Shown one piece after another: positions 6,601-63,586 of a stretch of 64,000 bases of DNA. Position numbers and translations under genes: made by a program. The stretch spans positions 17,873,633 to 17,937,632 of the forward strand of contig NC_089274.1 in NCBI RefSeq assembly GCF_963678975.1, written 5' to 3'. Origin of the DNA: Dysidea avara. Its lineage: Eukaryota; Porifera; Demospongiae; Dictyoceratida; Dysideidae. The notes beneath the pieces were generated by a model. The model saw nothing but the letters and a program-made list of their open reading frames with translations. It searched no databases and was not told where the DNA came from. Numbering within the stretch: the first letter of the stretch is position 1; every line of letters begins with the position of its first letter.

Positions 6601-9600
6601 TGAAAACTCAATTTTCTATTTCCATAGACATAGTATATCACACATAGTCACTTACTGCTCTATCACCATGTAAATAGTACTTGTCACAGCCAGCTCGGCA
6701 GGGAGAGAAATAGGTGATCCCATCAGAACACACTGGTTCAAATATAGTTGATTTACAGTCACAATGACTGTTGCAAGTAGCATTAAGAGTCTGATCATCA
6801 AATAGTGTACTATACAGATCATAAAGGAATTTTTAGCTACAGATCATCACACATTATACAGTCTATATACTACCTGTTGGGATAAAAATCTGTCACACCA
6901 GCTATGTCATGTGTTGGACATGACAAAAAGAATGCACCCAAAAACAGAACAGCCAACATAGTTATAAACGTATAATACAATATCAATCTCCTTGTTTCAG
7001 GTTTCAAGAAGAACACCAGTAGAGCACCTACAAGTACACATATGGAACAATATAATGCCTGTCATTCAAAGAAATACAATGTACACATAGGAGCACTTAA
7101 TCTGCAAATTCTAGTGTTATATATATGCATTAACTACCTAGCATCATCCCCACTCCAGCAGATGGTATTGCAACTGCTCCACTTATCAAACTACTTATAG
7201 AATCAGAGAAACCAAACTGTGTTTCCAAGTATTTAGGAGAAAAGGCAACAAGGCCTGTTGCTATTAAATTCTGAAGAGAAATTGCAACTGTTACACATAA
7301 ATATGGTACATTTGCTAGTAGGTCAAACAACTGACGTGGAAGTTCTCTGATATGAAATTTAATGTTTAGGTCTTCTTTATTTAATGCTCTTTTACGCTGA
7401 ATAGACATTTGCTTGATTCGTTCTTCCTGTATAAAATCTGTATTTGGATATTTCTTGGGAAACATAAAAAAAGGAATGCTTATTAATATTGAGATCACTC
7501 CACAAAGAATATATCCCATCCACCAAGCACCAACCCAACCAGGGTCCGACTCTTCAAGGGTGGTCTCTTTCCAAGGGTCAACATAAATATTTAGAAAAGC
7601 ACCTCCAATTCCAAACCCCAATGCCGGCCCTGTGATTGCCAAAGTATAGAAGATGCCAAGCCAAATGGGAGCACGTTTAGGATGAACAATATCATCAATA
7701 TAAGATGTTCCTATTGTAAAAAGTGATGCTGATCCTGTTCCTGTCACAATACTTGCAAGAATAAACATAAAATAGATATTGTCTGATTTTCTACACTCTG
7801 GAGAAAAGTCATTCTTGTCTTTGCATGCCTCAAATGTCAGATTGGCATTCTTTCCAACATCATAATCACCAGTAATAAATTGTGGTGATGCAAATAAAAG
7901 TGCTCCAATTCCCTGTATGAACACACTAGCTCCCAACCACTTAGGTTTATGACTGGTCCCACCAAAATAACTAATAAAAATTACTGTCACTAATACAGCA
8001 ATGTCAAAAGCACTTGATATCATTCCAAGTTGTGTACTAGAAAATCCATACCGAGTTTCCAGTGATGACAATACAACAGAAGTTAACCCTAAAACCAGTA
8101 ATAGATCACATTAGTTCTATACCATTTACCACCGTCTGATTAGGTATCATAGCCACAAAAAGCAGGGAAACAATGAAGGTTGCTTACACACCTACAGATA
8201 CACTAGTGGACATTTTTCAGTCTATGTATATACCCATGACTAACTGAATCCACTAGTATATTTTCAGATGTAGGCGACCTCCCTTGTTTCACTACTTTTA
8301 TGGCTATGATCCTTAATCAGACTAATTTTTCTATCTGTTTGTCTACTTTTTTTTATGATGAACCCACACATACCGTATCAAAAGGAAGAAGGACACCAGA
8401 CATGCCATTAAATTAATTTCTAAACGTGCACCCCAACTATCAATTTTTGCTGAAAAGCAAAGTGCCATTGCTTTCAGCTATGTTCAGCCCATTACACAGC
8501 ATTACAAACAAGGAACATTACATAAAGGACCTCTGCAATCAATCCACTCACAATGGAAAACTCAGATGATTCCACTTAATACGTAGGGAAGCCATCACAC
8601 TGTGCTACCACGAATTGACACCTTTCAAAGATACTGTAAATGGGACACAAAGGAGGACATCTTTAGCCTTAGTGGTTGTTGAGTTACTCTTGTCTGAAGG
8701 AAACAGGCAGGCAGGCAGGCAGGCAGGCAGGCAGGCAGGCAGGCAGGCAGGCAGGCAGGCAGGCAGGCAGGCAGGCAGGCAGGCAGGCAGGCAGGCAGGC
8801 AGGCAGGCAGGCAGGCAGGCAGGCAGGCAGTTAGTCAGTCAGTCAGAAATTCTGCTAAATAATATTTTCATAGTAACTTATCAGAAGCATTTTTGGCCGC
8901 TGTGTAGATGCCTTTGGGCTTGCTTATACCTCACTAATATTGCACAGGTGCCATGAAGCTATTGTGAGGCTGTTTTTTTGGGGGTGATATTTTTGGCCAG
9001 AAAAGCCTAAACCTTCATGATTCCTTCTATACAGTACTATTGTACTGTATGATAAGATGATATATTATAAATCTTCGCATAGGTACATGAAGCCACTGAG
9101 TATATGCACAATTTATTACACTCATACAGTAGTTAACAAAATGTACATGAGGAAAATGTGGAGAAGTATGGGAGTTTTATACATGCATCTGATCAGATTC
9201 ATGCATGGACAGTTTATTGTTAGGTTATTTGCACACTTAATGCATCCTTGCCGTATTATAGTCAGAAATCAGCCCTTATAGGTAGTGCATGCCTTAGTTT
9301 AGCTAGTAAAACTCTTTAAGTTTAGGATGGCAGTTTTTTGTAAAAGGTAATCTAAAATAACAACATTAAAGTCAATGCTTTATCCATTGATTATGACAAT
9401 CTATTGCGGCAAGTATCATACAAGCACAACCACTTTAAAGAAGCTTGTGTTCAACCAATTTATAAACGCTTTATTATAAATAAGGCTACCAACTATTCAA
9501 CTCCGCAGGTAACTTACATACCTAAACTTACTACATATACAGTTTCCATCTCCCTCATAATAAGGATCAATGATCAAGTCTGTTTGATGGTGTGCCCACA

Positions 9601-63586: not shown

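Follow-up and report, generated by a model that had tools for sequence, protein, structure and literature searches.

The four tandem genes B, C, D and E, which are of the OATP (SLCO) type and lie on the minus strand of a 64,000-nt stretch of Dysidea avara DNA (the window, by which we mean this whole stretch), share a homogenised exon 4 within surroundings that are silently diverged, in many pairs near to saturation. The island comprises exon 4 in all four genes and extends in B, C and E through intron 3 into the final part of exon 3. Inside it, both silent and amino-acid changes are depleted, and the closest partner of a copy changes within about 270 bp. We consider, with high confidence, that repeated ectopic gene conversion between the tandem paralogues is the best explanation of this island, since constraint alone would not be expected to switch partners along the block.

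Exons 2-6 of B, C, D and E could be assembled into intact models with GT-AG splice sites and without internal stops (Table 1). The four spliced exon 2-6 proteins all matched PF03137, the OATP family profile (best E=4e-154), and the one member protein displayed in full exceeded its gathering score. The exon-2 stop-to-stop frames alone also matched this profile above the cut-off in all four genes (E=5e-99 to 1e-90). Judged by these predicted proteins, B, C, D and E belong to the OATP / SLCO family. Peptides common to upstream frames pointed to a probable exon 1 in each of B, C and D that precedes exon 2 by about 6.6 to 10 kb, and no candidate exon 1 of gene E was found in the stretch remaining before the end of the window.

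Several repeats and mobile-element traces were observed among these genes. Upstream of gene C exon 2, in the probable intron 1, lies a minisatellite of about 2.9 kb with a 31-bp unit (25746-28606), and a long AC dinucleotide array (30138-30368) overlaps the open frame that contains the probable exon 1 of the same gene. The probable intron 1 of gene B contains Helitron-like traces on the plus strand (13206-14500), with matches to Helitron_like_N and to a Pif1-type helicase in overlapping frames, and a pure CAGG tetranucleotide array was located at 8704-8830. One dispersed repeat is common to intron 4 of gene C (21191-21838) and intron 5 of gene D (34044-34638), in pieces that are 83%, 91% and 79% identical and of which one is inverted, and another lies in intron 3 of gene D (37341-37690) and has a copy at 29395-29736.

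Table 1. Positions in the window of the gene models, the homogenised exon 4 copies and the adjoining segments (e2 to e6, exons 2 to 6)
Feature	Positions	Strand	Remarks
Gene B, exons 6 to 2	3656..8088	-	GT-AG model; PF03137 E=4e-154
Gene B, exons	e6 3656-3956, e5 6074-6234, e4 6656-6809, e3 6874-7027, e2 7138-8088	-	
Gene B, probable exon 1, within stop-to-stop frame	15618..15932	-	peptide in common with C and D frames
Gene B, exon 4, homogenised	6656..6809	-	GT-AG sites; Kazal_2 match below Pfam cut-off
Gene B, intron 3, 64 nt	6810..6873	-	79-81% in alignment with C and E
Gene C, exons 6 to 2	17739..23512	-	GT-AG model; PF03137
Gene C, exons	e6 17739-18075, e5 20512-20678, e4 21942-22095, e3 22149-22302, e2 22568-23512	-	
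Gene C, probable exon 1, within stop-to-stop frame	30096..30647	-	shared peptide
Gene C, exon 4, homogenised	21942..22095	-	3 private changes in first 108 nt
Gene C, intron 3, 53 nt	22096..22148	-	identical to E at 48/53 aligned sites
Gene C, exon 3, last 66 nt	22149..22214	-	62/66 identical to E
Gene D, exons 6 to 2	33302..40785	-	GT-AG model; PF03137
Gene D, exons	e6 33302-33635, e5 36600-36766, e4 37056-37209, e3 39602-39755, e2 39832-40785	-	
Gene D, probable exon 1, within stop-to-stop frame	50680..50988	-	shared peptide
Gene D, exon 4, homogenised	37056..37209	-	likeness ends within 4-7 nt of both exon ends
Gene E, exons 6 to 2	55106..63586	-	GT-AG model; PF03137
Gene E, exons	e6 55106-55484, e5 56460-56620, e4 62233-62386, e3 62441-62594, e2 62639-63586	-	
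Gene E, exon 4, homogenised	62233..62386	-	
Gene E, intron 3, 54 nt	62387..62440	-	identical to C at 48/53 aligned sites
Gene E, exon 3, last 66 nt	62441..62506	-	62/66 identical to C

Exon 4, which is 154 nt long, encodes most of the cysteine-rich Kazal-like loop. The Kazal_2 profile was listed for all four proteins (best E=3e-4), and its match in the gene B protein covers residues 381-428 with 20.4 bits, slightly under the Pfam cut-off of 22.8. The exon aligns to the corresponding Kazal-like part of the solved OATP2A1 and OATP1C1, in the extracellular loop between helices 9 and 10. A first-pass annotation of this DNA had described the conversion as centred on the extracellular loop, which holds as a statement of position, and a functional or selective reason for it would be conjectural. 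The function of the Kazal-like loop of OATPs is stated as unknown in the available text of one paper (PMC10507018), and it is called elusive in the corresponding part of another, where a disulfide is said to tie the loop to EL3-4 (PMC10709409).

Between paralogues, exon 4 is 93.5-97% identical in nucleotides and 88-96% identical in amino acids, whereas the respective values in the other exons are 58-82% and 48-80%. The first-pass annotation had counted 5 mismatches in 154 nt for B-C, 8 for D-E and 9 for B-E, and these counts proved exact, as did its coordinates, on the minus strand; the remaining pairs differ at 9 (B-D) and 10 (C-D and C-E) positions. Values of dS (NG86) in exon 4 were 0.05 for B-C, 0.12 for B-E, 0.14 for C-E, 0.16 for B-D and 0.18 for both C-D and D-E, in contrast to 0.68-1.58 in exon 2, 0.80-4.87 in exon 3 and 1.03-2.40 in exon 6; in exon 5 they went from 1.16 to saturation, C-D being the sole saturated combination of pair and exon. 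The lowest dS outside exon 4 is that of B-E in exon 2 (0.68), and exon 4 is lower in all six pairs. Silent divergence in exon 4 is far from equal to that of exons 2 and 6 (0.05-0.18 versus at least 0.68), equality being what the first-pass annotation would have taken as a refutation. When coding windows of 153 nt were taken from the other exons, even the best of them was less identical than exon 4 in all six pairs, e.g. 0.758 versus 0.948 for B-D, with the smallest gap in B-E (0.893 versus 0.941).

Silent changes were also counted at codons whose amino acid does not differ among B, C, D and E. Only 6 of the 45 such codons in exon 4 are silently variable, versus 129 of 194 elsewhere (Fisher P=5e-11), distributed as 78/115 in exon 2, 11/20 in exon 3, 16/19 in exon 5 and 24/40 in exon 6. 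In each of 150 overlapping windows of 45 same-amino-acid codons outside exon 4, 26-35 were variable, and the longest run of these codons without a silent change, 23, is located in exon 4 (permutation P=5e-5). Fourfold sites followed the same pattern, with 3/19 variable in exon 4 versus 31/50 in exon 2, 4/9 in exon 3, 4/6 in exon 5 and 9/14 in exon 6. Genes B, D and E are identical across 107 nt of exon 4, the longest common run elsewhere in the coding alignment being 20, and their exons 2 differ at 18-34% of sites. The dN/dS ratio of exon 4, divided from the NG86 values, was about 0.18-0.6 in five of the six pairs and 0.09 in D-E, versus 0.16-0.26 in exon 2, so that amino-acid changes have dropped along with silent ones; D-E is the one pair with a lower ratio in exon 4 than in exon 2. 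The 16 variable sites of exon 4 are spread unevenly, 4 at positions 1-108 and 12 at positions 109-154; of the former, three are changes found in C alone, and D alone differs at the remaining one, which is the first base.

The closest partner was found to change along the block. C and E are nearest to each other from the end of exon 3 through intron 3, all four copies are nearly identical in nucleotides 1-108 of exon 4, and B and C are nearest in the last third of this exon. Among the sites at which one of B, C and E stands apart from the other two, exon 2 pairs B with E 179 times, C with E 72 times and B with C 70 times; the corresponding numbers are 5, 17 and 4 for intron 3 taken together with the final 66 nt of exon 3, and 0, 2 and 7 for the final 46 nt of exon 4. 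Comparing B=E with C=E sites in exon 2 (179:72) and in the exon 3 end plus intron 3 (5:17) gave a Fisher P of 1e-5 with limits chosen post hoc, and this choice was corrected by a permutation scan of windows of 6 to 40 informative sites. The scan-corrected results were a C=E window from nucleotide 101 of exon 3 to intron 3 (17/22 sites, P=0.003), a B=C window from nucleotide 124 of exon 4 into exon 5 (22/37 sites, P=0.006) and a weaker B=E stretch at nucleotides 373-421 of exon 2 (P=0.045). Intron 4, which lies inside the B=C window, looks unrelated in these two genes, and the window may stand for two exchanges or for a single older one. Such a change of nearest relative within the block indicates exchange between loci, in more than one event, and together with the dS drop in exon 4 it supports the recurrent gene conversion that the first-pass annotation had proposed.

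Homogenisation reaches the adjacent non-coding DNA in intron 3 of B, C and E, but neither intron 3 of D nor any intron 4. C and E agree at 48/53 aligned sites of intron 3 (91%), and the similarity of this pair continues into the end of exon 3 (62/66), as had been noticed before; the likeness of B is weaker, with counts for intron 3 of 42/53 in B-C and 44/54 in B-E. Inspection by eye of the last 60 nt of the 2,392-nt intron 3 of gene D revealed no evident likeness to B, C or E past the splice site, and the first 60 nt of intron 4, judged by eye and unscored, look unrelated past the splice site in all copies. The identity of intron 2 was within the range of 40 shuffles in all six pairs, with B-D (0.34) near the shuffle maximum (0.35). 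On the 3' side, BLAST matches stop within 6-8 nt of exon 4, and for D they stop within 4-7 nt on both sides.

A GENECONV-style longest-run test on polymorphic sites of the six pairs did not flag exon 4 at P<0.05 in any of them, its run in B-C giving P=0.052 with all sites and P=0.20 with silent sites. The test flagged instead exon 3 of C-E (P=0.006) and exon 2 of B-E (P=0.013), and at silent sites only it flagged exon 2 of C-D (P=0.017), these three values being uncorrected for six pairs. The polymorphic codon columns left in exon 4 number 15 of 153, and exon 4 was probably missed by this test because all copies are alike and few polymorphic sites remain. Of the check that the first-pass annotation had suggested, the drop of dS over exon 4 was observed, but a GENECONV-style fragment in exon 4 was not. 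Exon 2 also bears a weaker sign of exchange between B (7138-8088) and E (62639-63586), at alignment codons 124-245 (segment P=0.002, run P=0.013), beside the B=E stretch of the window scan, all these values being uncorrected for six pairs. The available text of PMC2720389 names an elevated GC content as a typical trait of converted regions; the GC3 of exon 4 (0.25-0.31) is not raised with respect to the other exons (0.21-0.46), which leaves GC-biased conversion unsupported. No outgroup relatives were found in searches with the four-protein alignment in genome contigs and viral contigs, with the exon 4-5 peptide in genome contigs, and with the gene C exon 2 frame in plasmids.

A nucleotide-level constraint on exon 4 that acts without any exchange, such as a splicing code, an RNA structure, a small-RNA target or an overlapping frame, might also be considered. 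The near match of the tract with the exon in gene D, where the likeness ends within a few nucleotides of the exon ends, would also fit such an exon-level constraint, and one other sense frame of gene B exon 4 lacks a stop. Nevertheless, we regard this explanation as improbable. It is at odds with a closest partner that differs from one part of the block to another and with an island that takes in intron 3 in B, C and E but not in D. Moreover, the RNA fold of exon 4 is not unusual (z from -1.1 to +0.7, with 100 mononucleotide shuffles each), so RNA structure as the cause is unsupported, and, measured against silent changes, those of amino acids are no scarcer in exon 4 in five of the six pairs, D-E being the exception.

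It is very unlikely that exon 4 spread as a mobile cassette, e.g. within a transposable element, instead of through homologous conversion. Although the introns around exon 4 contain dispersed repeats (37341-37690 in D and 21191-21838 in C), no repeat adjoins all four exon 4 copies among the listed self-comparison matches of at least 80 bp, and exon 4 has the same place, phase and orientation in the four genes. In addition, a 37-base core of exon 4 (up to 3 mismatches) occurs four times in the window, each time within one of the genes; the repeat layout and this core count leave a transposon-carried cassette unsupported. An assembly or polishing artefact that flattened the differences between copies deserves hardly any credence: the identical core would be about as long as a short read, but flanks, introns and private variants differ among the copies, and the other exons appear too far apart (58-82% identical) to swap short reads, so that polishing could have exaggerated the island but would not have created it. 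Finally, protein-level purifying selection on the Kazal-like loop is to all intents ruled out as the sole cause, in line with the earlier annotation, by the strong depletion of silent sites too, which persists at codons with an invariant amino acid, and by several loop residues that differ from OATP1C1 and yet are identical in B, C, D and E, even though exon 4 is somewhat better conserved with respect to OATP1C1 (20/49 residues) than exon 2 (95/311) and exons 3, 5 and 6 (0.27-0.35) when the gene E protein is compared with one chain using approximate exon limits.

Repeated ectopic gene conversion could proceed as follows. When one copy is broken or nicked near the 5' part of its exon 4, a neighbouring paralogue would serve as the repair template. 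At least two exchanges with different partners seem to be needed, which would make the process recurrent. The tracts would stay short because the neighbouring introns are non-homologous, and strand invasion and heteroduplex presumably cannot run far past exon 4 and its splice sites. In gene D, with flanking introns unlike those of the others, the tract would cover little beyond exon 4 and the splice sites, whereas the short intron 3 of B, C and E is still alignable, and tracts would pass through it into exon 3. Once alike, exon 4 would remain the best template of the cluster and keep converting while exon 2 and the rest of the gene escape. Purifying selection on the cysteine-rich loop might, more tentatively, keep exon 4 a good conversion partner and purge damaged versions. 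A further suggestion, which we consider doubtful, is that selection keeps the loop uniform, so that copies with the same loop, and hence conversion of exon 4, would be favoured while the transport core diversifies; candidate reasons for a uniform loop would be, for example, one binding partner or one attacker shared by all four transporters.

Conversion limited to particular coding parts of tandem genes has reportedly been described for the protocadherin clusters by Noonan et al. in 2004. Exon- or domain-limited conversion is already described for mammalian pairs and for zebrafish NLR genes, and what is special here is the combination of four partners, strongly diverged surroundings and a tract of about one exon. 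According to the available text of PMC2720389, the mammalian pairs BMP8A/B, DDX19A/B and TUBG1/2 show a mosaic of concerted and divergent exon evolution, in which, as here, some exons are homogenised by conversion and others diverge. The tracts tabulated for those pairs mostly take in several exons plus introns and were studied with orthologues of multiple species, and raised GC is given there as typical of conversion, whereas the present island is about one exon in four genes, its GC3 is not raised and paralogues of one genome are compared. In zebrafish NLR genes, as presented in the accessible part of PMC4852459, domain-limited homogenisation within a gene family was likewise inferred from silent divergence, but those are immune receptors, nearly 400 genes with positive selection in B30.2, in contrast to the four transporters analysed here. 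The primate red/green opsins, duplicates about 24 kb apart, offer a similar local divergence profile of converting duplicates in the portion available of PMC3924837, which also reviews the theory. The two profiles are nevertheless opposite: in the opsins the background is low and a selected peak stands out in exon 5, whereas in the OATP genes exon 4 forms a valley against a high background. Our literature search returned no report of conversion in OATP genes among the titles and abstract starts listed, and the two papers containing both "gene conversion" and "organic anion transporting polypeptide", among those listed, were drug-genetics reviews.

Taken together, the cluster provides a clean natural example of conversion limited to about one exon among silently diverged genes, and it makes the homology limits on tract length testable. 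It also points attention to the Kazal-like loop of OATPs. If this loop is kept uniform by selection, it would be an exchangeable module that is homogenised apart from its transporter. Trees or orthology calls derived from the Kazal-like loop would mislead.
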